Virus record (IMG/VR): IMGVR_UViG_3300008050_000205
Location: 1 to 29,058 of that record
Source of the DNA: a virus
Reading direction: 5' to 3' (one strand)
Length of the DNA stretch: 29,058 nt
Position 1 is the stretch's first letter; every line of letters begins with the position of its first letter. The notes beneath the pieces are model-generated. The model was not told the DNA's origin. It worked only from the letters and a program-made list of their open reading frames with translations, and made no database searches. The position numbers were made by a program, and so were the translations under genes. Positions 5,041-28,233 of this stretch are shown one piece after another.

Positions 5041-5073
5041 ACGTGAAGACATCTATTTAGGAGATTGAACCCT

Positions 5074-7992
5074 ATGGCTGAAAGAAAGTTTAGATTTGTG
5101 TCGCCTGGCGTATTTATCAATGAGATTGATAATTCTCAACTGCCAAACGACCTGCCCGACGTTGGGCCTATTATTATTGGACGAGCAGAACGTGGCCCCG
5201 CTATGAGGCCCGTTAGAGTGAATTCTCCTTCTGAATTTGTAGAGTATTTTGGTAACCCGCTTCCTGGTGGACGAGGCGATGATGTGTGGCGTGATGGAAA
5301 CTATGTTGGTTCTACGTATGGCCCATATGCGGCAATGGCATATCTCCGAGCAGGAGTGGGGCCTATTAATTATGTTCGGCTCCTAGGGGCCCAGCATGCT
5401 GAAGCCACTACTGGCACTGCCGGATGGGACACTGGGTATGTTGCTCCAACTGGCATCGCAGCAGGAGCGGTTGGCACAAATGGTGGGGCATTGGGAATGT
5501 TTATCTTTAATTCCGGCTCCTCCATGCATGGATCAGACATTGGAAATGGACGGTTGGCTGCAATTTTTTATACTAGTGGTTCTGTCGTGGCTTTAAGCGG
5601 CACTAACTCTGGTGGAGCGGGTGCTGCGGACGCAGGAGTTCTAGGCCTCATGGCCTCCGTCGGATCGGGTCCGGAGTTTAAGGCAATCGTATCTGGCAGT
5701 GAGAATACTAGCTACACTACTACATTTAACTTTGATAGAAATTCATCTAAATACATTAGAAAAGTTTTTAATACAAACCCCCAACTTCTTCACGCAGGGC
5801 TGAGCAACCCAGCATCCAGGCATACCAGCGAAGCTCAAAACTTGTCAAACAGATATTGGCTTGGAGAAACCTTTGAACGGTTTGCCACTGATTCTGATTT
5901 CCTCACGGGCACTGATGCTGGCAAAGCATACGGGATCATGGTTCCGCTATATACTGGCACAGCTGGGGGGAACTTTGGGCAGAAAAGAAGAGCATTTGAA
6001 GATGGACAAACGGGCTGGGTATTCTCGCAAGACACAGCGACTGCTTATTCTGGGTTTGATGTTACAACCAGAACGTCGAAGCTCTTTAAAATTAAGGGGA
6101 TCAACCATGGAGAGTGGGCTTCCAAAAAGTTAAAGATATCCATTTCTGATATTAAAGCTGCGACCAATGATCTCGATTCATATGGTACTTTTACTGTCTT
6201 GGTTCGTAGAGCCAGCGATAGTGATAATGTTTTAGAAATAATCGAACAATTTACGAACTGCAATCTTAACCCTGCCTCAGAGAATTACGTTGCTAAAAAG
6301 ATTGGTGACAGGTATTTGGTATGGGATACGACTCAAAAAAGATTAAGGCAATATGGCGAATTCAATAACCTGTCTAAGTATATCTACATAGAAATGAACC
6401 AAGCCGTTGCAGACGGCGTAGCAGACCCGAGTCTACTCCCATTTGGATTTTATGGACCCATTAAGCCACAAGACTTCACTGTCTTTTCGGGCAGCTTGTC
6501 GACCTTTGATTCTGGGTCTGCCGATGAAGCGGGTGGGACGGAAATTAATACCTATGCGACAGGGTCGTCAGCAGCAGCAGGGGGCGCGGCTCCTGATAGC
6601 CTGGAAATAGACGGGTTTATGCCAGCTACAACTAATTTTACGGCATCATTCATTTTTCCCTCGATAGCCACAAGAAGAAGTGCCTCAGACGGAGGCCTCT
6701 CTGACCCGACTAAAGCTTATTTTGGTATTCAAACCTCACTATCAGCAACAAGTAAAAGATTTGATCCTGGTTATGGAGATTACTTAAGGCCAATGCCTGG
6801 AACTAGTGCCGCTTTTACCCCAGCTGAGGATACTCAAACAGAATATTCTTTCATATTTACTTTGGACGACATTAGCGGCTCACAAGGAGTTTATGTCTCT
6901 GGCTCAAGAGCAGATGGTACGTCTTTATCTGCTGTTAACTCGTCACACACGAATACTTTAAGCAGCGGGTACAAACGATTTACTATGCCTTTATGGGGGG
7001 CCTTTGACGGGATTGACATCACCGAGCAGGAACCATTCAACAACGGTTCAATTGGTTCTAGTGGAAATGAAAAAACAAGTTATGCATTTCATACTGTTAA
7101 GCGAGCTATTGACACAGTGGCAGACCCAGAATTTGTAGAAGCTAATCTAATTAGTATTCCTGGGGTTACTCAGCCAGTAGTTACGGACCAAGTGATTGCA
7201 GTTGCAGAGGCTAGAGCCGATTCTCTTGCGGTTGTCGATATCGAAAGTGTCTATACAACCAGCGCCGAGTCGACAAGTGGCTTTGAAGATAGGCTTGGCT
7301 CGGTTTCTTCGGCTGTGGCTGCTATGAAAGAAAGGCGCATTAACTCAAGTTATGGTTGTACCTATTATCCATGGGTACGAATTAGAGACGATATTTCCAA
7401 TGCTTCCCTTTGGGTTCCACCATCTGTTATCGCAATTGGCACATTTGCCTCTTCCGAGGCCAAGGCAGAACTTTGGTTTGCTCCTGCTGGTTTCACTAGA
7501 GGTGGATTAAGTACTGGCGGCGGGGGCTTCCCAGTTCTTTCGACAACAGAAAGGCTTCGCAGAGAAGATAGAGATGATCTATACGAAGCAAATATTAATC
7601 CAATTGCCACTTTTCCAAGCGAAGGCATCGTAGTCTTTGGGCAGAAGACCTTACAGGTCACCCCATCGGCTCTTGATAGAATTAATGTTCGTAGACTTTT
7701 GATATTCTTGAAGAAGAGAGTTTCAAGGATTGCTGCTGGCACTCTTTTTGACCAAAATGTTAGAACCACATGGATTAGGTTTAAGACTGAAGTGGATAAA
7801 TTCCTTGGCTCTGTTCAGGCTAGGCTTGGTCTCACGGAATTTAGGGTTGTTCTCGATGAAACGACTACTACCCCTGATCTTATTGATAGAAACATCTTGT
7901 ATGCCAAGATTTTCCTTAAGCCTGCTAGAGCTATTGAATTCATCGCAATTGATTTTGTTATCACTAAAACAGGGGCGTCTTTTGACGACTAA
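5074..7992 (+). CDS. Contractile tail sheath protein, T4 gp18-like
   Basis: A 972-residue protein. ATG 5074 is preferred over the in-frame TTG at 5065 because AGGAG at 5059-5063 leaves a proper 10-base gap only for the ATG. The N-terminus KFRFVSPGVFINEIDNSQLP is the classic sheath start (the donor strand for the inter-subunit mesh), followed by GPIIIGRAERGPAMRPVRVN. The C-terminal ~200 residues (RINVRRLLIFLKKRVSRIAA, later FRVVLDETTTT and ILYAKIFLKPARAIEFIAID) are the conserved inner sheath domain that packs on the tube. It is longer than T4 gp18 (659); the extra length is a Gly/Ser/Ala/Thr-rich middle region (~residues 110-680), probably surface-exposed insertions. It contracts on the tube to drive injection. 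Confidence 0.93.
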   Translation: MAERKFRFVSPGVFINEIDNSQLPNDLPDVGPIIIGRAERGPAMRPVRVNSPSEFVEYFGNPLPGGRGDDVWRDGNYVGSTYGPYAAMAYLRAGVGPINYVRLLGAQHAEATTGTAGWDTGYVAPTGIAAGAVGTNGGALGMFIFNSGSSMHGSDIGNGRLAAIFYTSGSVVALSGTNSGGAGAADAGVLGLMASVGSGPEFKAIVSGSENTSYTTTFNFDRNSSKYIRKVFNTNPQLLHAGLSNPASRHTSEAQNLSNRYWLGETFERFATDSDFLTGTDAGKAYGIMVPLYTGTAGGNFGQKRRAFEDGQTGWVFSQDTATAYSGFDVTTRTSKLFKIKGINHGEWASKKLKISISDIKAATNDLDSYGTFTVLVRRASDSDNVLEIIEQFTNCNLNPASENYVAKKIGDRYLVWDTTQKRLRQYGEFNNLSKYIYIEMNQAVADGVADPSLLPFGFYGPIKPQDFTVFSGSLSTFDSGSADEAGGTEINTYATGSSAAAGGAAPDSLEIDGFMPATTNFTASFIFPSIATRRSASDGGLSDPTKAYFGIQTSLSATSKRFDPGYGDYLRPMPGTSAAFTPAEDTQTEYSFIFTLDDISGSQGVYVSGSRADGTSLSAVNSSHTNTLSSGYKRFTMPLWGAFDGIDITEQEPFNNGSIGSSGNEKTSYAFHTVKRAIDTVADPEFVEANLISIPGVTQPVVTDQVIAVAEARADSLAVVDIESVYTTSAESTSGFEDRLGSVSSAVAAMKERRINSSYGCTYYPWVRIRDDISNASLWVPPSVIAIGTFASSEAKAELWFAPAGFTRGGLSTGGGGFPVLSTTERLRREDRDDLYEANINPIATFPSEGIVVFGQKTLQVTPSALDRINVRRLLIFLKKRVSRIAAGTLFDQNVRTTWIRFKTEVDKFLGSVQARLGLTEFRVVLDETTTTPDLIDRNILYAKIFLKPARAIEFIAIDFVITKTGASFDD

Positions 7993-8007
7993 TAGGAGTT
8001 ATAGAAA

Positions 8008-8247
8008 ATGGGCCTTAAACTAACTAAGAAAAATCTAAGCAGGATAATCCTCCAGGAGATTAGAAAGCTCACTGAACTGGAGCTGGGGGATGAGGAGCCA
8101 ATCCAGAGTTCCGAGGAGGTCACCGATCCTCAGAGAGATCAGGAACTAGAAGATGGTAAACGTTTTTCAGACGAGGACATAGAAGAAATATGGAAAGCCT
8201 TTGAAGAAAAAGGTTTTTTTGAAGGCTTTTCGGGGCACTCCTTCTAA
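8008..8247 (+). CDS. Hypothetical acidic small protein
   Basis: A 79-residue protein from ATG 8008 with TAGGAG at 7993-7998, between sheath and tube genes. The N-terminal LKLTKKNLSRIILQEIRKLT forms an amphipathic basic helix; the rest is strongly acidic and ends with an aromatic helix (EEIWKAFEEKGFFEGF). The opening recalls the KITKSQLRQIIREE-type start seen in several marine T4-like phage proteins, but this is a weak resemblance. It could be a minor tail or assembly factor. No function is assigned. Confidence 0.6.
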   Translation: MGLKLTKKNLSRIILQEIRKLTELELGDEEPIQSSEEVTDPQRDQELEDGKRFSDEDIEEIWKAFEEKGFFEGFSGHSF

Positions 8248-8275
8248 CAATAAAAAGAAAAATTAATACTATACA

Positions 8276-8290
8276 TACTATTTAATAGTA
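8276..8290 (+). promoter_or_regulatory. Near-palindromic late-promoter motif before tube gene
   Basis: TACTATTTAATAGTA is a TACTATTT core that is almost self-complementary, 21 bases before the tube gene's start codon. It follows a TATACAT stretch that could also serve as a -10 element. Confidence 0.4.
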
Positions 8291-8311
8291 GAGCTAAAAG
8301 GGAGACTTATT

Positions 8312-8896
8312 ATGTCAAATGCAGGGTTCTGGACTTCAACGCTAGTTTCGCCAAAAAGAAAATTTAGATTTTTAGTCACTATTGGCAATATGCCCAATGG
8401 TGCTACATGGTATGCTAAAAGTGCAACCAAGCCCGCAATTACTGTTTCGGCCACTCCTCATCTATTTCTTAATCATACTTTTCACTATCCCGGAAAGGTT
8501 GAATGGAATGAGATCACTGTAGTCCTTGTGGATCCTGTTAGCCCCGATGCATCTGCTAACTTATCTAGAATTATTCTAGAATCTGGCTATCACCCTCCTT
8601 CTGATGTCAATGACACCTCCACCATCTCTAAGAGCAATGCTGTTGCTGCTTTGGGAGGTGTTGCTATTCAACAAATCGACGCTGAAGGTGTACCAGTTGA
8701 AACGTGGACATTGAATAATGCTTTTATTAAAGAAGTAGCTTATGGCGGGGATTTGGCGTATGGTGAGGACGCTCTCGCAGAAGTAACCGTTAAGCTCCAA
8801 TATGATTGGGCATCAATAGAGACATTTTACGCCGCAGAAGCAGGTGTATCAACTGAGGGAACTAATAGATATTGGGTTCCTGGCCAAAGTAATTGA
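8312..8896 (+). CDS. Tail tube protein, T4 gp19-like
   Basis: A 194-residue protein from ATG 8312 with AAGGGAG upstream. The sequence SPKRKFRFLVTIGNMPNG, KSATKPAITVSATPHLFLNH and YPGKVEWNEITVVLVDPVSP, then TLNNAFIKEVAYGGDLAYGE and a final VTVKLQYDWASIE, matches the tube fold, in which hexameric rings stack inside the sheath to form the DNA channel. Length is close to T4 gp19 (163). It lies downstream of the sheath gene as in T4. The stop codon is embedded in the TTGACA of the next promoter. Confidence 0.9.
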   Translation: MSNAGFWTSTLVSPKRKFRFLVTIGNMPNGATWYAKSATKPAITVSATPHLFLNHTFHYPGKVEWNEITVVLVDPVSPDASANLSRIILESGYHPPSDVNDTSTISKSNAVAALGGVAIQQIDAEGVPVETWTLNNAFIKEVAYGGDLAYGEDALAEVTVKLQYDWASIETFYAAEAGVSTEGTNRYWVPGQSN

Positions 8897-12656: not shown

Positions 12657-15542
12657 ATGTCTAGCAAAAAAAAACCTGTGGTGCAGAATAAGGAGCACCC
12701 TGAAATCTCTGATGTGGAGGGAGATGGGGGCCCTAGTTCACTTGATGGAATAACCGGTGGCACGTCTTACAGCGCAGGCATGCCATTAATTTCAATGCCG
12801 GATCGTTCAAGCGGTGTTCATGCGACAGGGACAAATCTTCAAGCTGGCTACGGCGATGCTGACGTAGCCGCCCTACAGAGATACCTGATCGAGGAGCTTG
12901 GCCCAGACGAGGAGAATCCCACAGAATTTGGTAATAGCTCGATATTACCAAGGTTTGGTGTTGACGGGGTCTGGGGATGTGAAACACAAGGTGCTTTTAA
13001 TGATTTATTGAAGGAAAAAGGAATAGACAAATGTAATGAATCTGAATCGTCCCCCTGTGGAGAGGGCATACCAAGTTGTGCCTTAGATGAAGAAACCCTG
13101 CAAGCACTAAAGGACGCAGATAAAAAGAAAGAAATAGAGGAAGAGGAAGAGGAGCTAGAAACTACCCCACCAACTAGGTCGACAATGGACGATCAGTGTT
13201 TTTTAGTATCTAATATAGAGAAGATCGTATCTGACAGCAAGCCTCAGCAAGCCTCTTACCACGAATTGGTCGGAGAAAGCAGAAAAGAAATAAAATATAA
13301 AAATATACATAAATTATCCACAAAAGACCCGGCTACAATAATGAATCGCCTAAGGATGACTAGAGGGGCATTAGAATTCTTAAATATAAGACATTGGCAA
13401 CTTTCTCAATTAACTCCAACAATAAGAATTTATAAACAATATTATGAGGGAGCTAATAAACCTCCAAGAGAAGTGGAAATGAAGTTTAGAAATTATGTGG
13501 ATCCTGTAGACGATTTACAAGCCATGTTGGATAGCCAGCTACAAAGAGGAGTTGGGGTGGGTATCGAATATTTTAAATATGATTTGGTTGGAGTACAGCC
13601 TGCAACGGCCAAAAAAGACATTAGAGCCAGACTATCCATATATGCACAGAACTTTAATGAATTATTTAAAACAAGAACAGCAGTTGACCAAGTTGGCAAA
13701 CAGCTAGAAGGAGGTTATAGGATGATAGATTTGGTTCTCTTAGAACCAAAGTATCGCTTTATACAAGAAGAGGGCCAAAACCAAAAAATGAGGGCATTTA
13801 ATCCAAATTTTTATGAAATAAAGGTTGTGGTTGGCTGGGCTGCTACGGGTGGGGGTGGTTTGTTATCAAGCGACCTAACGAATGCCATTAGGGAAAATCA
13901 GTTAACGATGTTCTTGACTGTAACCAACCACACATTTGATTTCAAAGAGGATGGTTCTGTTCGCCTAAACTTAGACTTTAGAGCTAGAGTTGAATCTATG
14001 ATGTTAGACGTTAGATCAGATGTTCTATCCGATGCTAAGACAAGACAAAGGAGAAAAGAAAGGAAAGATAAAGTAAGAGAAATTGAACTTGCACAAGCTG
14101 AGCTAAAAAAACAAAAAAAAGAAGCTTGTAGTGATGATAAGATTAAAGAACTCCAGGAGGCATATACTGCTGGGGTAGAAAAGGAGAGAGAAAACTCCTA
14201 TCAGTCACTACTCCGTGGACTGATGCAGAATAATGCCATCTACACAGCTATAATCACAGAAGAGACTGTAAAGAGTGCCTCAGATGCTGCTGAAACGGGG
14301 AAACCAATGCTATTTAGTATTTTACACCCCAAGTGCAGTGAACTATCTGATGAGGGAGCAACAGAAGGTATCGATCTTTCAAAATATTCAGAGGTTCTAA
14401 AGCCTGGGGTAAGGGCAGTTAACTATTTCTTTTTAGGTGACCTTATAGCTTTGGCAACTAACAATGTCTTAGACAGACCCGAGCTTCAAGACATAAATTA
14501 TGGCAATATCAAATTTGTGCTGGGACCAGCAGTTTTTGACAACCCAGACCCTGCCTCAAATGGGTCGATTGGGATGAATATCGCTGATATACCCATCTCT
14601 GTTGAACTCTTTAATGCGTTCATGAAAAAGTATGTTGTAGATTCAAGAAGAAATACTTATCCATTATTACTCTTTGTGCGTGATGTAATGAAACAACTAG
14701 TATTCGAGGCACTCGGCCCAGAGTGTTTTGGGGGAGAAAGAAGATTATCTTTACTTCTTGATACCTCCCAAATAAGCGCAGATTCCGGTGCAGGGAATGA
14801 AGATCCGATGGCGGTTAGAATGGGAGAGAATTATTCTTTAGACCTAGATCAATTTACTGTGAATTTAGAAGATCCCTCAAAAAGTACTTTTGTCTTTGAT
14901 TCTTTTAGTAGAAAAAGCATGGCAGAGAGCTATAACTACTTCGTAATTTATGCATTTAATAAAGAACCGAGAGGTCTAGCCTTTCCAGATCAGTCGGGAC
15001 ACAAAACTCGTCATGATAGAGATTTTATAAAAGGTATTTATCATTTAACAACCGGGCTTGATCGAGGGTTGGTAAAAGATATGCAGTTTACTGCGACTAC
15101 CCATACATATTTAAGGGAAGCTAGATTTACAGAGAGCGATTTCAATCCGGAATTACAATTATCAAATGTCTATAATGTTGATGTGAACTTATTTGGAAAT
15201 AATTTATTTTTTCCAGGACAACATATTTATATTAATCCGCGAGGGCTAGGTTCAGATGAACTTGGGGATCCTGGAACTCCCAACACTAATGCTAATATAA
15301 TGGGACTAGGCGGTTACCACGTAGTCAAGTCGGCCAATAACACTATTGATAGAAATGGCTTTAGCACTAAAGTAGACTGTTTGTTCTCTACAAGTGGAGA
15401 CGGCACTGGGACCACGATAACCAGAAAAGCACAAGTAGGAGAACAGGCTTCTCTAGATTGTGCCATTATTGATAAAGAAATTAAATATTTAACTGAGTCA
15501 TTTAATGTAGACAACATAGATATATCTGGTGGAGGGACTTAG
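12657..15542 (+). CDS. Large baseplate-associated protein with peptidoglycan-binding-like domain
   Basis: A 961-residue protein from ATG 12657, two bases after the gp53-like stop. The N-terminus is disordered. Residues ~67-122 (YGDADVAALQRYLIEEL, then FGVDGVWGCETQGAFNDLLK) match the helical peptidoglycan-binding domain pattern. An acidic linker (EEEEEELE) follows. Residues ~185-450 form a mixed alpha/beta region. A charged coiled coil spans about 460-510 (KTRQRRKERKDKVREIELAQ onward). The beta-rich C-terminus (YNVDVNLFGNNLFFPGQHIY, INPRGLG; GGYHVVKSANNTIDRNGFST) resembles hub/spike-linked proteins. A hub or wedge component that contacts cell wall on penetration is a reasonable inference; the family is not recognised. 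No lytic active site is visible. Confidence 0.55.
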   Translation: MSSKKKPVVQNKEHPEISDVEGDGGPSSLDGITGGTSYSAGMPLISMPDRSSGVHATGTNLQAGYGDADVAALQRYLIEELGPDEENPTEFGNSSILPRFGVDGVWGCETQGAFNDLLKEKGIDKCNESESSPCGEGIPSCALDEETLQALKDADKKKEIEEEEEELETTPPTRSTMDDQCFLVSNIEKIVSDSKPQQASYHELVGESRKEIKYKNIHKLSTKDPATIMNRLRMTRGALEFLNIRHWQLSQLTPTIRIYKQYYEGANKPPREVEMKFRNYVDPVDDLQAMLDSQLQRGVGVGIEYFKYDLVGVQPATAKKDIRARLSIYAQNFNELFKTRTAVDQVGKQLEGGYRMIDLVLLEPKYRFIQEEGQNQKMRAFNPNFYEIKVVVGWAATGGGGLLSSDLTNAIRENQLTMFLTVTNHTFDFKEDGSVRLNLDFRARVESMMLDVRSDVLSDAKTRQRRKERKDKVREIELAQAELKKQKKEACSDDKIKELQEAYTAGVEKERENSYQSLLRGLMQNNAIYTAIITEETVKSASDAAETGKPMLFSILHPKCSELSDEGATEGIDLSKYSEVLKPGVRAVNYFFLGDLIALATNNVLDRPELQDINYGNIKFVLGPAVFDNPDPASNGSIGMNIADIPISVELFNAFMKKYVVDSRRNTYPLLLFVRDVMKQLVFEALGPECFGGERRLSLLLDTSQISADSGAGNEDPMAVRMGENYSLDLDQFTVNLEDPSKSTFVFDSFSRKSMAESYNYFVIYAFNKEPRGLAFPDQSGHKTRHDRDFIKGIYHLTTGLDRGLVKDMQFTATTHTYLREARFTESDFNPELQLSNVYNVDVNLFGNNLFFPGQHIYINPRGLGSDELGDPGTPNTNANIMGLGGYHVVKSANNTIDRNGFSTKVDCLFSTSGDGTGTTITRKAQVGEQASLDCAIIDKEIKYLTESFNVDNIDISGGGT

Positions 15543-15543
15543 T

Positions 15544-16836
15544 ATGGCAAAAAGAGATTTTTTAGGTTCTAACTCCCAAAAAAGTAGTAGAGACACTTTT
15601 AATGAAAGAGCAAAATATAACAATTATGCTATACCTTCTCACGTTATAGAGGATAACCCCGGTCTTTTTCGTAATTTCTGGTTTATAGAAAATATGTATT
15701 ATGGGAGGATAGATAGGGGTCATAACTTTCTTGTAGTAAAACCCGAGAAGCTTAGGCCGTTAGGGGGCCAGTCAAATAAGGCTATCTTTTTGCTTGATTT
15801 TGTAGCACATGCCATGTCAGATTTTATTGAAGAATATAAAAAAGCTATCTCGACAAGCAAAATACAAAAAAATGATGATTTTCTTTCTGAGATTTTAATT
15901 GAAAAAGGACACCAGAATATATTCACAGAATATGATAAATACATGGTCAAATTAAGAAAATCCGTACATAAGGTTATGTCTCGAAACCAGGCTAAGGTGG
16001 AAAATTTTGATGATTTTGTACAATTTTTTATAGATCATATAACAACGAGAAAGGAACAGTTACCCATAACTTTTACTGGATTTGTTGCTAGTAAACTATC
16101 TTCTCCTCTAAGTACAGGAGTCTTTGCTGATATTTCTTCTCTAGAATATGACAAGGACATCAATAAAATCACCAAGTTCATTGATAGGCCAAATTTTAAA
16201 TTTTTTATGAATAATTGTTTAAAGCACGGATTTATGATTGACTATAATATACCTTGGAGGCTATGTGCTAACTTGGGGTCTGGTGAAATGGGAAAATATA
16301 TGGATTTATATGAAGTTAACAGTGATTCAGTCTTTGAAAAATATTATGATAAAACCTATACTAAGGATATGCAATATTTTATGGATTATATGTTAAAGTT
16401 TTATAATAGATTTGTAGGTTTAAGACCTTATATAAGAAGAGAAAAAATCATAAACAATAGAGGATTACAAGTTCATCGTTTTACAGAAAAACGGCAAAGG
16501 ATGACGAGAGAAACATTAGAAAGAAAATATGATGATATATATAGAACTAATTTATATGTTGATTTAAGAAATTATGAATCCGATGATAGGTATGATGATG
16601 CTCTAGTGGATAATATTAAACGTACTGCTATTGGACATTTGAATATGACAGACGGAATGGGTAAAGCTTTAGAGTATATAAGTCACCAATTTATAGGCTT
16701 TTTAAATGACCCCTATGCTTATAATGGATTTATGATTCGGGAAGAAGCAAAAAAAAATAATGAGCAATTGAGTGGACAAGAATTACAAGACTTGTTAAAT
16801 GATTCTGTGACAGCGTCCAGAGAGACCATTTACTAG
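15544..16836 (+). CDS. Hypothetical phage protein
   Basis: A 430-residue protein. ATG 15544 is chosen over the in-frame GTG at 15529 because GGAGGG lies at 15531-15536, seven bases away, inside the end of the preceding gene. The protein is Lys/Tyr/Asn-rich and mostly helical, with YAIPSHVIEDNPGLFRNFWF near the N-terminus, GHNFLVVKPEKLRPLGGQSN, a FIDRPNFKFFMNNCLKHGFM segment and a C-terminal GFMIREEAKKNNEQLSGQEL. No signal peptide, membrane segment or enzymatic motif was found. It sits between baseplate genes and the DNA polymerase; codon use is AT-rich. It may be a virion protein of the baseplate cluster, but I do not recognise it. Confidence 0.6.
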   Translation: MAKRDFLGSNSQKSSRDTFNERAKYNNYAIPSHVIEDNPGLFRNFWFIENMYYGRIDRGHNFLVVKPEKLRPLGGQSNKAIFLLDFVAHAMSDFIEEYKKAISTSKIQKNDDFLSEILIEKGHQNIFTEYDKYMVKLRKSVHKVMSRNQAKVENFDDFVQFFIDHITTRKEQLPITFTGFVASKLSSPLSTGVFADISSLEYDKDINKITKFIDRPNFKFFMNNCLKHGFMIDYNIPWRLCANLGSGEMGKYMDLYEVNSDSVFEKYYDKTYTKDMQYFMDYMLKFYNRFVGLRPYIRREKIINNRGLQVHRFTEKRQRMTRETLERKYDDIYRTNLYVDLRNYESDDRYDDALVDNIKRTAIGHLNMTDGMGKALEYISHQFIGFLNDPYAYNGFMIREEAKKNNEQLSGQELQDLLNDSVTASRETIY

Positions 16837-16844
16837 AGGCAGAA

Positions 16845-18026
16845 TTGATATTCCAAACATTAGATACTAGGGAAAATTGTAGGGCTGTATATAAGGACGG
16901 AGAACTAGTATATAATCAATTACCTGATGACCTGACTCATACTTGGACAACTTCCCAGTTCCTACAAAATAAGGATATTGAATATGCATATCTCTATTCT
17001 CAGGGCTCACTCGCTGAAGCCTGCCCTGAACATTTAAGGCTAGAGTTAGAGGAAACAACAGGTCTTTTAAAAGCATTCTTGCTGTCTATTGCTGAAGCAA
17101 AGGTTAACCCAAATCAACATTGTTTTTATGATATCGTACCAGACAACTTTTTGATTAAACTTTGTAGAATTAAGAATAAAATATCTCAGTATGTTTTTGA
17201 GAACTACGAGAGACCTAAAAATTATAATTTCTTAAAGGACCTTCTTATCACAACCCAGAGTATTAGTCACAATAAGTTAAATATAGACTTTTCAAGAGTT
17301 AGGAAAGACTGTACTAGTTTTGCAATTAGGAATAGATTAAAGTCTATAAGATCAGCAGATCCGTATGTCAGATATAACATATTTGGATCTAAGACGGGAC
17401 GTTTGACGACTCAGTCAAATAGTTTTCCTATCTTGACATTAAATAAGACTTTTCGTAAAATCCTCATCCCTAACAACTATAAATTTGTTGAATTTGATTT
17501 TAATGCGTTTGAATTAAGAATTCTCCTTTATCTCCTTGATAAGGAACAACCAGAGATAGATATTCATCAATGGAATATAAAAAATGTTTATAGGGGACAA
17601 GCTACCAGAGAAGAGGCAAAGAAAAGAATATTTTCATGGTTATACAACTTAGACTCAAAAGATTATTTGTCTGGTCGAGCATATAATAGGGAGGAAATAG
17701 TAAAAAAGTACTGGGATGGTACGTCAATAACAAACCCATTTGGTCGAACGATAGAGTCGGATAAGTTCCACGCTGTGTCATATCTTGTACAGAGTACAGC
17801 AGTAGACATTGTTTTGAGACAAATGATAAAACTACACAAATTGTTGAAAAATAAAAAGTCCCACATTGCCTTTACAATCCATGACTCAGTGGTTATAGAT
17901 ATGGCAGAAGAGGATATGAGTTTGCTACCAGAGCTAAAGAGACAGTTCTCTACATTCAGAGACACACAGTTTCTGACTAATGTGTCTATCGGTAGTGATT
18001 TTGGTAATATGGAGAAGGAAGAATGA
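16845..18026 (+). CDS. Family A DNA polymerase, polymerase domain only
   Basis: A 393-residue protein from TTG 16845 with GAGG at 16836-16839. The palm/fingers motifs of family A are present: SKTGRL (182-187), motif A FDFNAFELRIL (217-227, metal-binding D218), motif B R255-x3-K259 ending LYN (R, K and Y267), NPFGR (297-301), QSTAVDIV (316-323) and motif C IHDS (345-348, metal-binding D347). The usual HDE of motif C is HDS here, so the Glu next to the catalytic Asp is replaced. The N-terminal ~150 residues are too short for a 3'-5' exonuclease and show no DxE. T4 itself has a family B enzyme. A separate exonuclease gene, as I recall for RM378, may lie outside the window. It synthesises phage DNA with the helicase and SSB downstream. 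Confidence 0.85.
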   Translation: MIFQTLDTRENCRAVYKDGELVYNQLPDDLTHTWTTSQFLQNKDIEYAYLYSQGSLAEACPEHLRLELEETTGLLKAFLLSIAEAKVNPNQHCFYDIVPDNFLIKLCRIKNKISQYVFENYERPKNYNFLKDLLITTQSISHNKLNIDFSRVRKDCTSFAIRNRLKSIRSADPYVRYNIFGSKTGRLTTQSNSFPILTLNKTFRKILIPNNYKFVEFDFNAFELRILLYLLDKEQPEIDIHQWNIKNVYRGQATREEAKKRIFSWLYNLDSKDYLSGRAYNREEIVKKYWDGTSITNPFGRTIESDKFHAVSYLVQSTAVDIVLRQMIKLHKLLKNKKSHIAFTIHDSVVIDMAEEDMSLLPELKRQFSTFRDTQFLTNVSIGSDFGNMEKEE

Positions 18027-18384: not shown

Positions 18385-18554
18385 ATCTTACATCTCAAGA
18401 TATTAATGATTTGATGGGTGTCGTTGGTAATCGCATGGATGACCTCTCTGACGCTGGGCTTGCATATACTGACGACGGAGACACTGACGAGACCAAGAGG
18501 CTTTGGAAGCTATATCTTAAACTGAAGGCATTATCTGAGGAGAGCGAAGAATAA
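18381..18554 (+). CDS. Hypothetical 57-residue protein, ATGA-coupled
   Basis: ATG 18381 overlaps the preceding stop; the frame runs further upstream, but only this start fits the coupling pattern. The protein is acidic and helical (LTSQDINDLMGVVGNRMDDL, then ETKRLWKLYLKLKALSEESE). Its final codons, GAGAGCGAAGAA, repeat those of the gene before it and of the gene at 28538, including position relative to the next start. Function unknown. Confidence 0.6.
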   Translation: MNLTSQDINDLMGVVGNRMDDLSDAGLAYTDDGDTDETKRLWKLYLKLKALSEESEE

Positions 18555-19387
18555 TGGATATTATAGGACTGGGAGAAGCAGGCTGTAACATAGCCGAATG
18601 TTTTAGAAAATATCCACAATACAACATCTACAAGATAGACGTTGGAGTGGAAGGGGATAAATGCTTCAATGTCCCGAAGCAAAAAAGCCCTGAGGACTAT
18701 GAAAGCTCTGCGCCCGACCTATCTTCCTTCTTTTCAGAACTAAGCGAAGAGGCGATATTTATTGTAGGAGGGGCAGGCCACATATCGGGTATGACACTCG
18801 CGATAATAGAACAGATAAAAGATAGAAAAATATCTGTGCTATACATTCGCCCTAACCCTAAGAGCCTGACAGGAAAAAAGAAGTTGCTTGAACGAGCAAC
18901 CTTTGGTATACTACAGCAGTACGCCAGGTCAGGCCTTCTTGAGGATATATACACTGTGGATAATGAAGTTATAGCAAAAATAGTTGGTAATCTACCAGTT
19001 ATAGGTTATTTTGATAAAATAAATGAAATTATAACATCAACCTTGCATTTTATAAATATATTTGATAGATCGAGACATGAGTACGGTGTTGTAGAAGAAA
19101 GGGAACCTGTTTGTCGTCTTTCGACGATTGGCCTGTTAGACCCTGAGACTTCGGAAGAAAAGATGTTCTATAATTTCGACTTAATAAGAGAGAAAAGTTA
19201 TTTTTACGCTTTGAACAAAAGCAGACTACTTAATGAGTCTAACCTGATTTCGACCATAGAAAACCATATCGAAGAAAAAAAGGAAAAATGGTTGACAAAC
19301 TTTTCTTACAGGTTATACTCCACAGACTACGAAAATGATTTCGGGTACTGTATACACAGAACATCAAAAGTTCAGGGGGAAACATGA
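18554..19387 (+). CDS. Divergent tubulin/FtsZ-like GTPase
   Basis: A 277-residue protein whose ATG overlaps the previous TAA (TAATG). The order of motifs follows the tubulin/FtsZ GTP-binding domain: a beta strand ending GLGEAGCN (5-12, like GxGGxGxN), FIVGGAGHISGMTLAII (69-85, replacing the signature GGGTGTG), LTGKKKLLER (105-114, matching the FEGKKRM helix start), DIYTVDNEVI (131-140, position of IPNDKLL), and FDKINEIITSTLHFINIF (153-170, the helix before the T7 loop). The T7 catalytic pattern NxDxxD is not visible; DRSRHEYG stands there. So nucleotide binding is likely but self-activated hydrolysis is doubtful. Phage tubulins (PhuZ, TubZ) position replication centres or plasmids. Here it sits between polymerase and SSB. 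Assigned by motif reading alone; a different Rossmann protein is possible. Confidence 0.65.
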   Translation: MDIIGLGEAGCNIAECFRKYPQYNIYKIDVGVEGDKCFNVPKQKSPEDYESSAPDLSSFFSELSEEAIFIVGGAGHISGMTLAIIEQIKDRKISVLYIRPNPKSLTGKKKLLERATFGILQQYARSGLLEDIYTVDNEVIAKIVGNLPVIGYFDKINEIITSTLHFINIFDRSRHEYGVVEEREPVCRLSTIGLLDPETSEEKMFYNFDLIREKSYFYALNKSRLLNESNLISTIENHIEEKKEKWLTNFSYRLYSTDYENDFGYCIHRTSKVQGET

Positions 19388-19632
19388 AGGCATATATGGG
19401 GATATTTCTTAAAGAAGACGGTAGCAGAAGACCAATGCGATTTGCTAAGTTAGAAGACCTACCGGCTGGCTTCCTAGAAGCCAAAACAACAGGCACAGGC
19501 CAGTCCCCGCAATATGCCCCAGGCAAAGAATTAGTTTGGGACCTAGATGTAGGACAGTTTAGAGTATTTAATCATAATACGGTCCAGGGAGTAATCTCTG
19601 TAGCCGATTTTGACGAAAATAATTTAGTTTGA
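19384..19632 (+). CDS. Small SH3-like beta-barrel phage protein
   Basis: An 82-residue protein, ATG overlapping the tubulin-like stop (ATGA). Its form, FLKEDGSRRPMRFAKLEDLP ... GKELVWDLDVGQFRVFNHNT, resembles the family of small SH3-barrel proteins common in T4-like genomes ('xxKxDGSxRxMxF ... VWD ... FRxFN'). These have no established function that I know of. The overlap indicates co-translation with the tubulin-like gene. The last codons overlap a promoter-like TTGACA. Confidence 0.6.
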   Translation: MKAYMGIFLKEDGSRRPMRFAKLEDLPAGFLEAKTTGTGQSPQYAPGKELVWDLDVGQFRVFNHNTVQGVISVADFDENNLV

Positions 19633-19665
19633 CAAGTTTAGCACAACAGGATATTAGCTGTTGTG
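19629..19665 (+). promoter_or_regulatory. Promoter-like site with palindromic operator before ssb
   Basis: TTGACA (19629-19634), a 17-base spacer and TATTAG (19652-19657) resemble a sigma70 promoter. A perfect 8-bp inverted repeat, CACAACAG-N8-CTGTTGTG (19642-19665), is centred on the -10, the classic location of a repressor site. No T-tract follows, so it is not an ordinary terminator; it could also act as an RNA hairpin in an mRNA from upstream. Confidence 0.45.
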
Positions 19666-19711
19666 ACTATAGAGCGATGCTCACAATTAACAAAAAAGGA
19701 AAAAAAATAAT

Positions 19712-20473
19712 ATGGCTATTAATTTAGAAAAGATGCGTAATAAGTTGAATAAGTTAGAGGGCAAGGGAGCAGGACAGTCTTCATTCTGGAAGCCCCAGGA
19801 TGGAGAACAGACCATTCGGATCCTGCCTTGTGCGGACGGAGACCCCTTTAAGGAGTTTTGGTTCCACTATAATCTCGGAGATAATCGAGGATTTTTGAGT
19901 CCTAAGAGAAACTATGGGGAAGATGATCCTCTTGATAAGTTCGTCCGCAAGCTCTTTAATGAGGGTACCGATGAATCTGTTAAGATGGCTAAGAATCTCA
20001 TGGCTCGCCAACGTTTCTTTTCTCCCGTCATTGTTCGGGGAGAGGAGGAGAAGGGAGTCCGTCTTTGGGGCTATGGTAAGATGGCTTATAGAGAGCTTCT
20101 TAACCTTGTGCTGAACCCGGATTACGATGATATCACAGATCCCGAAACGGGTACGGATCTCGTAATCCGTTATGGAAAGCCAGCAGGCGCAGCCTTTCCA
20201 CAGACGCATATTTCTGCTCGTCGCCGGTCGTCACCTGTCTTTGAGAACGATAATGACGGGTCTAGGGCTGCCGATGCCCTGGATTCTATCCCAGACTTTG
20301 AGGAAGTCTTTGTTGAGTCACGTAAGACTCCTGAGGAAGTTGGTCGTATGCTCGACGAATGGCTCTCAGGTGAGTCTGATGGAAGACAAGACGTTGAAAA
20401 ATACGGTAGCGGCACTAAGTCCAAAGTAGATGAGAAACTTAATCAGCTTTTGAACGCCAGCGCTACTGTTTGA
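19712..20473 (+). CDS. Single-stranded DNA-binding protein, T4 gp32-like
   Basis: A 253-residue protein from ATG 19712 with AAAGGAAA upstream. The N-terminus MRNKLNKLEGKG corresponds to the self-interaction (LAST-like) region, followed by FWKPQDGEQTIRILPCADGD and EFWFHYNLGD, the OB-fold start of gp32. The region that carries the zinc-binding cysteines in T4 gp32 reads FLSPKRNYGEDDPLDKFVRK, without cysteines; the only Cys is residue 40. The C-terminus lacks T4's acidic tail but has an Asp/Glu-rich stretch (FENDNDGSRAADALDSIPDF). It coats ssDNA and coordinates polymerase, helicase and UvsX. Codon use is GC-shifted like the capsid gene, suggesting high expression. Confidence 0.88.
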   Translation: MAINLEKMRNKLNKLEGKGAGQSSFWKPQDGEQTIRILPCADGDPFKEFWFHYNLGDNRGFLSPKRNYGEDDPLDKFVRKLFNEGTDESVKMAKNLMARQRFFSPVIVRGEEEKGVRLWGYGKMAYRELLNLVLNPDYDDITDPETGTDLVIRYGKPAGAAFPQTHISARRRSSPVFENDNDGSRAADALDSIPDFEEVFVESRKTPEEVGRMLDEWLSGESDGRQDVEKYGSGTKSKVDEKLNQLLNASATV

Positions 20474-21064: not shown

Positions 21065-22192
21065 GTGGCAAGGGCGCAAAAGAAAACAGGCAAAGTCGCT
21101 ATGGGCGATATGATTAAGCGTTTAAATAAGAAGTATGGGATGAAAGTCGCCCATAATTTAAACCAGGAAAATCCAACAGAAGTCAAGGAATGGATCCCGA
21201 CCGGCTCCAGATGGCTTGACTCAATCATTTCTAAAGGGCAAATGGCTGGGATTCCTGTTGGCAAGATAACAGAGATCGCTGGTCTTTCTTCTACAGGCAA
21301 GAGCTATTTGGCAGTTAACGTCGCTGCAAACGCCCAGAAAATGGGCCATTATGTGGTTTATTTTGATGCCGAGAGTGCAATAGACCCTAATTTTATTAGA
21401 AAAGCCGGGGTAGACACAGACCCAGAAAAATTTATGTATATTCAGGCAACTACGGTTGAACAGGTGCTTGAGATGGTGGAAGAATTCATTGGTACAGAGC
21501 AACAAACTCTGCTCATTTGGGACTCAATTGCCAATACTCCCACTGAGTCTGACAAGGAGGGTGATTTCAACCCTCAATCTTCAGTTGGGAAGAAAGCCAG
21601 GGTTCTCTCCTTGGGATTCCAAAAACTTACAATTCCAATTGCTAACTCACAGTGCACGCTACTTGGACTTAATCAACTAAAGACTGTCATTCCTAGTAGC
21701 CATGCCCAGAGAATGGAGGCGATGAGTGAACCGTATTTTACACCAGGTGGAAAGGCTATGGTTTATAATGCTTCTCTCCGTATCTGGCTGACAGGTCGTA
21801 AGGCAAAATCCGCATATGTTAAGGATGAAAATGGATTTACTATTGGTTCTGAGGTTAAGGCAACCCTAAAAAAATCTAGATTTGGCACGGAACGACGACA
21901 ATGCACGTTCCAGATTATGTGGGGCGATGATGAGGTTAGAATTCTAGATGAAGAGTCGTGGTTCGAGGCGGTCAAAGGATCAGAGCACATCCAGCAGAGT
22001 GGGGCATGGTATACTCTTATCTACGAAGACGGGACAACAGAAAAGTTCCAAACTGCAAAATGGTTGGAATTGTTGCAAAAGCCTAAATTTAAGAATAGAG
22101 TGTTGGAACTCATGGACGCAGAGGTTATAGGCAAGTACAAAGATAGACAGGGAAGCATAGAGTCCTTTGAAGATATAGATCGAGGGGTGTAG
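21065..22192 (+). CDS. uvsX: RecA-like recombinase, T4 UvsX family
   Basis: A 375-residue protein from GTG 21065 with AAGGAGG at 21054-21060. Walker A GLSSTGKS (73-80), activating Glu in FDAESAID (E103), Walker B LLIWDS (149-154) and the L2 GLNQLK region are all present, as is a C-terminal DNA-binding tail. Length fits the family (T4 UvsX 391). It assembles on ssDNA coated by the gp32-like protein and drives strand exchange for recombination-dependent replication and repair. Gene symbol given by homology to T4. It follows the small membrane/lipoprotein cassette. Confidence 0.88.
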   Translation: MARAQKKTGKVAMGDMIKRLNKKYGMKVAHNLNQENPTEVKEWIPTGSRWLDSIISKGQMAGIPVGKITEIAGLSSTGKSYLAVNVAANAQKMGHYVVYFDAESAIDPNFIRKAGVDTDPEKFMYIQATTVEQVLEMVEEFIGTEQQTLLIWDSIANTPTESDKEGDFNPQSSVGKKARVLSLGFQKLTIPIANSQCTLLGLNQLKTVIPSSHAQRMEAMSEPYFTPGGKAMVYNASLRIWLTGRKAKSAYVKDENGFTIGSEVKATLKKSRFGTERRQCTFQIMWGDDEVRILDEESWFEAVKGSEHIQQSGAWYTLIYEDGTTEKFQTAKWLELLQKPKFKNRVLELMDAEVIGKYKDRQGSIESFEDIDRGV

Positions 22193-22211: not shown

Positions 22212-23183
22212 TTGAAAAGAGTAATGTTAATAGATTGCATGAATATATATTTGCGATCTTATATAGTAGACCCAAGCCTATCGGAGAACGGAATTCCGAT
22301 AGGAGGGTTTAAGGGATTTCTTAAAACATTACAAAAGCTTTGTAGAGAAGTGAACCCCGATAAGGTAATAGTCGTGTGGGATTGCGGTGGTGGCTCCCGT
22401 AAGCGCAAAAGAATAAGTAAGGACTATAAGGCTGGCAGGAGCCCCATACGTTTGAACAGAACAATAAGAAACCTTACTCTAAGAGAGGAACAAGATAATA
22501 AAATCTGGCAGCAAATAAGGCTGTCGGAGTACCTGAATCAGCTACCCATCATACAGTATTGTATTGAAGATGTGGAGGCAGATGACGTTATTTCTTATCT
22601 AGTTCAGAATAAACGACTTAGAGGTTGGCAGAAGATAATCATATCTAGTGATAAAGATTTTTTTCAACTATGTGACGATAAAACCATTATGTACAGGCCA
22701 ACTCAAAAAGAAGTGCTGAATAAATATTCAATTATTGAAAAGTATGGCATTCATCCAAATAACTTTGCTCTAGCCAGAGCGATAGTGGGAGACCCTTCAG
22801 ATAACCTGAAAGGAGTTCAGGGGGCTGGGTTGAAAACAATTTCTAAAAGATTTTCTTTTATGGGAGAAGAGAAAGACTACTTACTGGAGGACATTCTAGA
22901 ACACTGTAGCAGGGTGGAAAAGCCACTTCTTATTCACAAAAGAATATTAAATAATATTAAATTAATTAAGAAAAATTACAGTTTAATGCAACTGTATAGC
23001 CCCTCCCTGTCGCCAACAGTAAAGTCCCAGGTAAACTACATATTGGAAAACACAGAAATGGGATTCAACTTAACAGAAATGAGAAAAATGATGGTGATAG
23101 ATGGTTTCGGAGAATGGGAGAATTCTGAACTGACTATAGCCATGAGAAAAATAGTTGCGTGTTCTAGAGAATCAGATAGATAA
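22212..23183 (+). CDS. 5'-3' exonuclease / flap endonuclease (T4 RNase H-like)
   Basis: A 323-residue protein. TTG 22212 is chosen, behind a G-rich stretch (22203-22208), giving the usual start MKRVMLIDCMN; ATG 22224 would cut into the strand holding D8. Conserved elements: D8 in LIDCMN, D57 in VVWDCG, DYKAGR (71-76), EDVEADD (119-125), SSDKDF (135-140) and the helix-hairpin-helix region GDPSDN ... GVQGAGLKT (183-199). Length is close to T4 RNase H (305). It removes RNA primers and flaps from lagging strands. It is independent of the polymerase, which lacks a 5' nuclease domain. Confidence 0.88.
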   Translation: MKRVMLIDCMNIYLRSYIVDPSLSENGIPIGGFKGFLKTLQKLCREVNPDKVIVVWDCGGGSRKRKRISKDYKAGRSPIRLNRTIRNLTLREEQDNKIWQQIRLSEYLNQLPIIQYCIEDVEADDVISYLVQNKRLRGWQKIIISSDKDFFQLCDDKTIMYRPTQKEVLNKYSIIEKYGIHPNNFALARAIVGDPSDNLKGVQGAGLKTISKRFSFMGEEKDYLLEDILEHCSRVEKPLLIHKRILNNIKLIKKNYSLMQLYSPSLSPTVKSQVNYILENTEMGFNLTEMRKMMVIDGFGEWENSELTIAMRKIVACSRESDR

Positions 23184-23199
23184 AAGGGGGAGAGGAATT

Positions 23200-24561
23200 A
23201 TGGAACGAACAAATTTTAGCCATTTTGGCAAAAGTTTTCAAGAGGCGTTGTGCCTCTTGGTTTTAGAGGATAGACCGTTCGCGGATCAGTTATTTGAAGT
23301 CTTTGACATCACTTTTCTTGAATTAGGATATCTAAGATTATTCGTAGCTAGAATAATTGAGTACCGGGAAAAGTATGGTGTACATCCTACCAGAAATATT
23401 ATGGGTACGATTATAAAGTCGGATTTGGGAAAAGAAAACGAAGCGATTCAGAAACAGCTTAGGTCTTATTTCGTTAAGGTTATGTCGCTACCTCATGTAG
23501 ACGATTCTGAATTTGTAAAGGATAAAGCCCTGGATTTTTGTAGAAAGCAGAAGTTAAAGGGAGCTATGCTTAAGTCTGTGGATCTGTTGCAAAGTTGTTC
23601 CTTTGACGAAATATCTAAAATTATAAACGATGCGTTAAAGCTTGGTAGCGACTCCAACTTTGGCTATGACTATATTAAGGATTTTGAAGAGCGCTTTCTT
23701 GTTAAAGCCCGCAACCCAGTTTCTATGGGATGGTCGGAATTGGATGTTATTTCCGGTCGTGGGCTAGGCCAAGGTGAATTGGGTGTGGTTATAGCACCCA
23801 CAGGAGCCGGTAAATCAATGGTTTTAGTCCACTTAGGGGTTCAAGCCTTACTTCAGGGTCGTGATGTAATACACTATACGCTGGAGTTGAGTGATACCAC
23901 TATTGCTTCTAGGTATGATAGCTGCATTACCGGCGTCCCCCTCAAGGATCTTTTTTCGTTTAAGGAACTGATTTTTGACAAGATCGAGAACGTTCCAGGA
24001 AATCTCATTATAAAAGAATATCCAACAAAGTCAGCTTCGACTAGGACTATAGCTAATCACCTTGATAAGCTGGTGAACAGGGGTGTTAAGCCTGGCTTAA
24101 TAATAATTGATTATGGTGATCTTTTACGTCCGGTCACAACAAGGAAAGAAAAGCGAATGGAACTTGAATCAATTTACGAAGAAATGCGTGGTATTGCACA
24201 AATAAATGAGTGTCCCATATGGACCGCATCACAAACAAATCGATCAGGACTAAACGCAGAAGTTATTACTATGGAGTCTATTTCGGAAGCCTTCAATAAG
24301 TGTTTCGTGGCAGATTTTATCTTTACAGTGTCAAGGACAATGGAGGATAAGAACTCCAATACTGGAAGAATTTACGTAGCAAAAAACCGTAACGGCCCAG
24401 ATGGACTGTTATATCCCATTTTCATGGACACAAGTAACGTAAAGATTCGTGTGTTGCCTCCAAGCGATGAAAGTGTGGAGGAGGTTACCTCGAAAAGTCA
24501 GGCTGACTTTTTAAAGAAGACATACAAAAAGTTTAAAGAACAATTAAGGGAGACTACCTAG
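23200..24561 (+). CDS. Replicative DNA helicase, DnaB/T4 gp41-like
   Basis: A 453-residue protein. ATG 23200 is chosen over the in-frame ATG at 23155 because GGGGGAGAGG at 23186-23195 is the only good ribosome site and the upstream codons lie inside the exonuclease gene. RecA-fold motifs: Walker A APTGAGKS (199-206), catalytic Glu in YTLELS (E229 area), Walker B LIIIDYGD (300-307), and TASQTNRSG (342-350). Length matches T4 gp41 (475). A hexameric ring that unwinds the fork ahead of the polymerase. No primase gene is visible in the window. Confidence 0.88.
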   Translation: MERTNFSHFGKSFQEALCLLVLEDRPFADQLFEVFDITFLELGYLRLFVARIIEYREKYGVHPTRNIMGTIIKSDLGKENEAIQKQLRSYFVKVMSLPHVDDSEFVKDKALDFCRKQKLKGAMLKSVDLLQSCSFDEISKIINDALKLGSDSNFGYDYIKDFEERFLVKARNPVSMGWSELDVISGRGLGQGELGVVIAPTGAGKSMVLVHLGVQALLQGRDVIHYTLELSDTTIASRYDSCITGVPLKDLFSFKELIFDKIENVPGNLIIKEYPTKSASTRTIANHLDKLVNRGVKPGLIIIDYGDLLRPVTTRKEKRMELESIYEEMRGIAQINECPIWTASQTNRSGLNAEVITMESISEAFNKCFVADFIFTVSRTMEDKNSNTGRIYVAKNRNGPDGLLYPIFMDTSNVKIRVLPPSDESVEEVTSKSQADFLKKTYKKFKEQLRETT

Positions 24562-27225: not shown

Positions 27226-28233
27226 ATGAGTATTAAATTAGCAGAATATATCTGGCTCGATGGGTCAGAACCCACCAGACAGCTTAGGAGCAAAACTAGA
27301 GTAATACCCGTTGAGGAACAACCAGGTATTTGGGGTTTTGACGGCTCCTCGACGAACCAGGCAGAGGGCCATAGCTCTGATTGTGTTCTGAACCCGGTCA
27401 AAGTCTTACTAGACCCTACAAGATCTGGCCCTATACCTTCGATTCTGGTTTTATGTGAAGTATTGAATGTAGATATGACTCCACATAAGTCTAATACGAG
27501 GAGTCGTTGCGTAGAAATTGGAGAAAAATATCAAGATCAAGATTCTTGGTTTGGGTTAGAACAAGAGTATACTTTACTGAAAGATGGTAGGCCCTTAGGC
27601 TTCCCTAAAGATGGGTATCCATCCCCACAGGGGCAATATTATTGCAGTGTCGGAACATCAAACGCATTCGGCAGAGAGATTGTTGAGAGCCACTTGGAAG
27701 CCTGCTTACTAGCAGGCCTGAAGATTTCGGGCATCAATGCCGAAGTTATGCCAGGCCAATGGGAGTTCCAGGTTGGCCCATTGGGTCCGGTTGAGACTTC
27801 AGACCACTTGTGGTTGGCGCGGTTCCTTCTTGAAAGGATTGCGGAGAAGCACGGGGTGTCTGTCTCTTGGGATCCCAAGCCGGTCGAGGGCGATTGGAAC
27901 GGAGCCGGATGCCATACCAACTTCAGCACCAAGGCGATGCGCGAAGAGGTGGGCCTGTGCGAAAAGGCTGCCGCGTCTTTGGGTGAGAGGGCTGAGGAAC
28001 ATATTGCAAATTATGGTGCCGACATTGAAAAGCGGTTGACCGGCTTGCATGAAACAGCGTCGTATAAGGACTTCTCATGGGGAGTTTCCGACCGTGGAGC
28101 ATCCGTGAGGATCCCATGGCAGGTTGCCCAAGAAGGTGTCGGTTACATCGAGGATAGGCGTCCAAACGCCAACTGTGACCCCTATGTGGTTACCACCTTG
28201 ATCACAGAAACAATTTGTTCGGCATTAGGATAG
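27226..28233 (+). CDS. Glutamine synthetase, type II (GSII)
   Basis: A 335-residue protein from ATG 27226, 12 bases after AAAGGAG. All hallmark regions of eukaryote-type GSII are present: WGFDGSSTNQAEG (36-48), WFGLEQEYTLL (108-118, metal-binding Glu), GINAEVMPGQWEFQVGP (159-175), HTNFST (220-225), LTGLHET (261-267), GASVRIP (281-287) and IEDRRPNANCDPY (298-310). So it looks catalytically intact: ATP-dependent glutamine formation from glutamate and ammonia. The 3' half is much GC-richer (38 of 60 bases at 27901-27960) than the 5' half (22 of 60 at 27481-27540), suggesting a mosaic, recently acquired gene. GSII is unusual in phages. Probable role: nitrogen assimilation for nucleotide synthesis during infection. 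Confidence 0.93.
   Translation: MSIKLAEYIWLDGSEPTRQLRSKTRVIPVEEQPGIWGFDGSSTNQAEGHSSDCVLNPVKVLLDPTRSGPIPSILVLCEVLNVDMTPHKSNTRSRCVEIGEKYQDQDSWFGLEQEYTLLKDGRPLGFPKDGYPSPQGQYYCSVGTSNAFGREIVESHLEACLLAGLKISGINAEVMPGQWEFQVGPLGPVETSDHLWLARFLLERIAEKHGVSVSWDPKPVEGDWNGAGCHTNFSTKAMREEVGLCEKAAASLGERAEEHIANYGADIEKRLTGLHETASYKDFSWGVSDRGASVRIPWQVAQEGVGYIEDRRPNANCDPYVVTTLITETICSALG

Follow-up and report, generated by a model that had tools for sequence, protein, structure and literature searches.

A highly divergent tubulin/FtsZ-fold protein in the replication module of uncultured tailed phages

Proteins of the tubulin/FtsZ superfamily are best known as filament formers in DNA movement and cell division, and one member, CetZ, is an archaeal cell-shape protein. 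In phages, tubulins with positioning roles have been documented (PMC4244570, PMC3678025). The loop T7, the base of helix H8 and S9 share the same space in the protofilaments of tubulin, FtsZ and phiKZ TubZ, and T7 bears the catalytic aspartate (PMC3678025). A precedent for superfamily members without the standard filament elements is the FtsZl1 family (Makarova and Koonin, 2010; PMC2875224). We have analyzed a 29-kilobase (kb) virus fragment, the IMG/VR record IMGVR_UViG_3300008050_000205 (the window hereafter, meaning the whole stretch of 29,058 nucleotides). By gene content it is a tailed phage, with a gp23-type capsid, contractile sheath, gp32-like single-stranded DNA-binding protein (SSB), UvsX/RecA, exonuclease, DnaB-like helicase and B12-type ribonucleotide reductase. 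Within its replication cluster lies a gene, here called TUB, that represents a new and highly divergent phage family inside the known tubulin/FtsZ superfamily.

18554..19387, + strand: TUB, tubulin/FtsZ-superfamily protein without T7/H8, 277 amino acids (aa); AlphaFold2 model, Foldseek and VIA-align matches, hhalign against FtsZ, and ratio of nonsynonymous to synonymous substitution rates (dN/dS)

The open reading frame (ORF) is a real gene: its dN/dS against four close relatives was about 0.09-0.11, indicating purifying selection, and it has at least 570 relatives in one collection. An earlier note on this DNA, made from the sequence alone, had described the ORF and proposed a tubulin/FtsZ-like fold for its product, and both proposals proved right. 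The template-free AlphaFold2 model, built with 72 aligned relatives, reached a predicted local distance difference test score (pLDDT) of 94.8 and a predicted template modelling score (pTM) of 0.92. It shows the tubulin N-terminal nucleotide domain, followed by the helix H7 and a C-terminal sheet domain, and the outcome named in the note as refuting its proposal, a predicted structure lacking the tubulin fold, did not occur. When the model was compared with the PDB by Foldseek, chains of FtsZ, TubZ and tubulin ranked first (E 4.7e-12, query TM-score (TMq) 0.64-0.75). VIA-align gave CetZ at Z 25.1 (254 residues, 2.6 A), TubZ at about 23, the FtsZ of Aquifex at 22.7 and tubulin at 21.9, over residues 1-277 of the model, with nearly all of them aligned and both domains spanned. 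In the viral fold library (BFVD) the best matches were phage proteins of the FtsZ/PhuZ type. The profile comparison that the note had proposed pointed the same way. In a profile-profile alignment (hhalign) of the TUB family with 11 FtsZ-family proteins (P 1.3e-4, 158 columns) the register was correct at T1, at the aspartate region of T2 (D29), at T4, at the T6 asparagine (N137) and at the aromatic and asparagine of H7 (F153, N157); its modest probability of 54% supports the fold result and would be insufficient alone. Fold matches and in-register alignment together settle, at the level of the predicted fold, that TUB belongs to the superfamily.

Sequence searches gave far less. Single-sequence family scans against Pfam, PHROGs and NCBIfam left the family unrecognised, with nothing significant, and the same was true of PDB sequence searches; the fold surfaced solely via the deep alignment. 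The NCBIfam FtsZ model aligned weakly and in register (E 0.079), far below the family cut-off; PF00091 was matched weakly by 3 of 21 members, short of the Pfam cut-off, and no second PF00091 protein was found in the 6 records checked. The same kind of scan brings in another reading, in which TUB is a generic Rossmann NAD(P)-binding protein with a GxGxxG start and no relative of tubulin. TrkA_N was matched slightly better than Tubulin (4 of 21 members, best E 0.0087), and the weak PDB sequence matches include malate dehydrogenase (E 1.5). Against this, every listed Foldseek and VIA-align match is a tubulin/FtsZ protein and covers both domains, and the T6 and H7 asparagines align with those of FtsZ. 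This reading, already disfavoured, appears to us highly improbable.

CetZ is the best structural match, but TUB, at 13% identity, is the shorter of the two and has no T7/H8. TubZ of Bacillus plasmids and phage c-st shares the fold (Z 23) and is likewise a mobile-element tubulin; unlike it, TUB has replication enzymes (PolA, a family-A DNA polymerase, and SSB) as conserved neighbours. PhuZ/TubZ of the phiKZ-like nucleus-forming jumbo phages is also a phage-encoded superfamily protein of similar size, and the viral fold search returned PhuZ of phage Noxifer at E 5.9e-7. However, TUB has neither the T7 acid nor H8 and lies in a PolA/SSB operon, while the PhuZ of phiKZ is not beside its polymerase. 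Besides, four diverse TUB members had no significant tblastn match among 50,697 isolate phage records, whereas a PhuZ query finds 179 records. The best viral fold match, an uncultured phage 'FtsZ' (A0A6J5RW92, BFVD; TMq 0.79), has 452 aa and 15% identity to TUB. In FtsZl1 no T6-H7 can be recognised and the C-terminal part is of another kind; TUB keeps T6, H7 and a tubulin-like C-terminal domain and loses T7/H8. With FtsZ itself TUB shares the fold, H7 and the aligned base-contact positions of T1, T6 and H7. It differs in a T3 that is not glycine-rich, a T4 that is not GGGTGTG, the missing T7 and a score far below the FtsZ cut-off of NCBIfam.

Conservation at the nucleotide site was counted over 207 distinct TUB relatives and was read together with the model on these features:

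18566..18589, + strand: T1-like loop GLGEAGCN (residues 5-12), aligned to FtsZ GVGGGGGN; G7 100%, G5 99%
18767..18790, + strand: T4-like loop GGAGHISG (residues 72-79), an altered tubulin signature, aligned to FtsZ GGGTGTG; G73 and G75 each in 65 of 72
18911..18931, + strand: LQQYARS (residues 120-126), the family hallmark, at the C-terminal end of H5 (residues 107-125); Q121 and R125 100% in 207
18962..18964, + strand: N137, the T6 asparagine, by alignment a guanine contact in FtsZ, paired with the asparagine of FtsZ IPN; 97% in 207
19007..19066, + strand: H7 core helix (residues 152-171, DSSP of the model) with N157 (98%) and the invariant H165 (100%)
19067..19114, + strand: segment 172-187, the expected place of T7/H8, with no helix and no conserved acid (model and conservation)

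Six residues were invariant (G7, Y23, L82, Q121, R125 and H165), and N137 and N157 align with the FtsZ guanine-contact asparagines of T6 and H7. The four motifs listed in the earlier note (GLGEAGCN, GGAGHISG, TGKKK at 106-110 and VDN at 135-137) are all at the residues given there, and three of them are family features, through G5/G7/A9/G10/C11, G73/G75 and N137; TGKKK is not conserved. The altered glycine loop and the missing T7 pattern, which the note had seen in this one protein, hold across the family. T4 is of the GG[AS]Gx[IV]SG type and departs from the canonical signature ([SAG]GGTG[SAT]G, GGGTGTG), and T3 has lost its glycines and reads PEEYE. After H7 the model has no helix before residue 222, at a pLDDT of about 94-95 in the T7 stretch, and residues 171-187 hold no conserved acid in the 207 sequences. 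On both grounds, as far as model and conservation tell, T7 and H8 are absent from the family. Given the role of the T7 aspartate in protofilaments, a canonical polymer-coupled GTPase is unlikely.

The lost T3 glycines, the changed T4 and the lost T7 would fit a protein that has become an adaptor on a tubulin scaffold, with nucleotide binding gone and a purely structural part in the replication complex. We regard this as unlikely, as few positions of the family are better conserved than the T1 glycines and those that contact the base in FtsZ. The block with the strongest invariance (LQxYARS closing H5, Y23 ahead of S2 and H165 in the later part of H7) should sit, by Rossmann-type fold logic, at the edge opposite the nucleotide, where it would be either an exposed interface or an interdomain latch. 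The first of these leads to the main rival of the reading that we prefer below, a PhuZ-like filament with a new interface. TUB would then be a phage cytoskeleton that positions or segregates replicating DNA as PhuZ/TubZ do, through a non-canonical longitudinal contact in which R125, Q121 and H165 could replace T7. The full two-domain tubulin fold, the kept guanine-contact positions, the invariant polar residues at the C-termini of helices H5 and H7 and the positioning roles of phage tubulins cited above are consistent with it. However, the invariant residues may instead join the two domains, and chimallin had no match in 13 large records of up to 184 kb, a search without a positive control in possibly incomplete records. 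We hold such a filament to be doubtful.

The genomic place of TUB is fixed. The replication module in the window is made of the following genes:

16845..18026, + strand: PolA, short family-A DNA polymerase, 393 aa, conserved upstream neighbour of TUB (PF00476, 7.9e-14)
19384..19632, + strand: sm7, 82 aa, ATGA-coupled to TUB; five-stranded beta-barrel by AlphaFold2 (pLDDT 89)
19712..20473, + strand: gp32-like SSB, conserved downstream neighbour (PF08804, 2e-10)
21065..22192, + strand: UvsX/RecA-like recombinase (phrog_97, 7.7e-63)
22212..24561, + strand: exonuclease and DnaB-like helicase of the same cluster (phrog_107, 1.1e-27; phrog_19, 6.2e-71)

We used two sets of loci, one anchored on TUB and one on PolA. 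In the TUB-anchored set PolA was found at most three genes upstream in 72 of 74 loci and the gp32-like SSB at most two genes downstream in 81 of 83. PolA directly adjoined TUB in 46 loci, with a gap of at most 10 nucleotides in 41, including 18 with a 4-nucleotide overlap. The reverse search gave the same picture, with a same-strand TUB downstream of PolA in 77 of 78 testable loci; its profile was built from TUB-bearing loci and its 80 best hits were ranked by likeness to that profile, and hence this figure measures the clade of the window and not all phages. The sole exception (L294) runs into the contig edge after a series of small ORFs and for this reason does not count against TUB as a core gene. 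TUB is thus a core gene of a replication module, PolA - TUB - [sm7] - SSB - RecA - exonuclease - helicase, in a large clade of uncultured phages. The earlier note had placed the gene inside a replication cluster, and this setting turns out to be stronger than it could see. Its closer description of the surroundings stands in part. The TUB ATG does overlap the preceding TAA, and the TUB stop and the start codon of the 82-aa gene (19384) overlap within ATGA. However, the fetched loci contain no more than one relative for each of the three small acidic ORFs upstream and sm7 is present in about a third of loci, whereas PolA and SSB are the conserved neighbours.

On these grounds our preferred reading, held with about even confidence, is that TUB is a divergent tubulin/FtsZ member at the core of the replication module and most likely a nucleotide-binding replisome scaffold. 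It would still bind guanine nucleotide, and would be unable to hydrolyse it in the tubulin/FtsZ manner, where one subunit inserts its T7 acid into the pocket of its neighbour. Since this type of hydrolysis would be missing, TUB is probably a nucleotide-dependent scaffold or switch, produced in step with the polymerase and SSB, that tethers replication proteins to SSB-coated DNA or keeps them within a replication focus, and probably not a treadmilling cytoskeleton. We advance more tentatively a narrower version, in which TUB is a dedicated part of the replisome and acts as a guanine-nucleotide switch on SSB-coated DNA or on the polymerase; the trigger for its hydrolysis would be a partner, or else the invariant residues Q121, R125 and H165 at their relocated site, instead of the T7 of a neighbour. 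Several points weigh against the replisome scaffold. Conserved gene order is no proof that TUB touches PolA or SSB, and the PolA-anchored sample, built from and ranked by TUB-bearing loci, is not random for the clade. The case against filaments rests solely on the missing T7/H8, and TUB could polymerise through another interface. The altered T3 and T4 loops could also be compatible with weak or no binding of guanosine triphosphate (GTP).

The earlier note had offered two functions, a scaffold for the replication centre and a decoy of host FtsZ. The strict PolA-TUB-SSB synteny favours the former, which we still only infer, while the latter gains nothing specific and would be the weaker idea, on the same inferential footing. 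A decoy would cap or poison the host FtsZ filaments and block division. Phages do attack FtsZ using other, unrelated proteins, and an FtsZ-like fold without T7 could serve such an end; however, TUB has only about 9-15% identity to FtsZ, its T3/T4 loops are remodelled, and it is a core gene between PolA and SSB and not a gene of a variable host-takeover region. Being core rather than accessory, and with little sequence shared with FtsZ, TUB is in our view very unlikely to be a decoy.

One scan of viral contigs gave 35 loci with TUB relatives, and profile-guided scans of IMG/VR confirmed at least 570 and at least 586 relatives, so that the family exceeds 580 IMG/VR loci. Its carriers are a large group of uncultured, mostly marine tailed phages. 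For the PolA of the clade, too, tblastn gave no match among isolate phages. When 84,980 GTDB genomes were scanned with the TUB family profile, zero relatives were confirmed. No described tubulin in such phages was found in the literature, most subscription papers and preprints lying outside the coverage. A superfamily member without the filament-coupled catalytic loop is near-constant in the replication operon of hundreds of these phages, which suggests a tubulin-fold protein put to work in DNA copying. If TUB is indeed a replisome switch, the tubulin fold would be used in DNA replication itself and not in moving or dividing things. With this family one can test whether the fold is able to serve replication as a switch that forms no filaments. 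The family also offers a clue to the function of a 'hypothetical protein' that is very common among uncultured viruses and that Pfam and PHROGs do not recognise.

A second conserved element lies between TUB/sm7 and the SSB gene.

19642..19672, + strand: covarying RNA hairpin with an 8-bp stem, an 8-nucleotide loop and an ACTATAG tail

In most of the clade the hairpin is present; its stem has exactly 8 bp, the 8-nucleotide loop is mostly GAKATTWG or GAGAGTTA, the tail is ACTWTAG-like, and in most loci the hairpin is found about 20-50 nucleotides 5' of the SSB start. Among 47 distinct sequences all eight pairs varied on both sides, with 154 double-change cells vs 39 in shuffles; the rows were selected for pairing, so '100% paired' holds by construction, and slid controls dropped to 35-54%. 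A covariance model recovered the hairpin from 17 PolA-anchored loci, one of which has two copies; most of the 17 had played no part in building the model. It is near-unique per genome, with one clear match in a 159-kb record and one in 180 kb of a 184-kb record, both in the TUB-SSB stretch. A search of loci from the L117-type sub-clade gave no hairpin save one marginal match, and many of these loci may stop short of the SSB leader. No Rfam family reached its cut-off in the window. In T4, gene 32 is regulated by its own protein via an mRNA structure ahead of the gene, and by analogy the hairpin may be a translational operator of SSB.

The 'T4-like' label of the earlier note holds only broadly; it fits the gp23-type capsid, the sheath, the gp32-like SSB and UvsX/RecA. 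It does not fit the polymerase, which is of family A, and queries for gp59 and gp45, which had no positive control, gave no match in the 13 large records. We considered TUB as a stand-in for T4 gp59, whose gene adjoins gene 32 in T4, but nothing connects the two folds and this is a thought only. The window PolA is unusually short, and the exonuclease is encoded by a separate gene (22212-23183). Directly before PolA, in about 70 loci, is a 435-aa protein (15529-16836, + strand, in the window) without Pfam, PHROG or NCBIfam match. In some sub-clades genes are inserted between PolA and TUB, of about 790 aa (L063/L064/L083/L094), 355 aa (L022/L024/L054) or about 100 aa (L017/L020/L023). For the sm7 barrel the PDB gave nothing with E below 0.2, and its matches to WYL/PWWP/SH3-like barrels were at E 0.2-1.

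The window also encodes a type II glutamine synthetase, GlnII (27226-28233, + strand; 568.6 bits, above the NCBIfam cut-off), which shares 63-68% identity with cellular GlnII from Actinomycetota, Chloroflexota and other groups; a host guess drawn from it is not decisive, with relatives spread over all these groups in the same range. The 184-kb relative (L284) carries a single cluster of six tRNA genes and a transfer-messenger RNA (tmRNA) gene at 5754-8346, with the tag ANNNTHFDAVALAA. The tail-sheath protein of the window (5065-7992, + strand) is very long, at 975 aa, and its sheath match extends from end to end, on either side of a large insertion.
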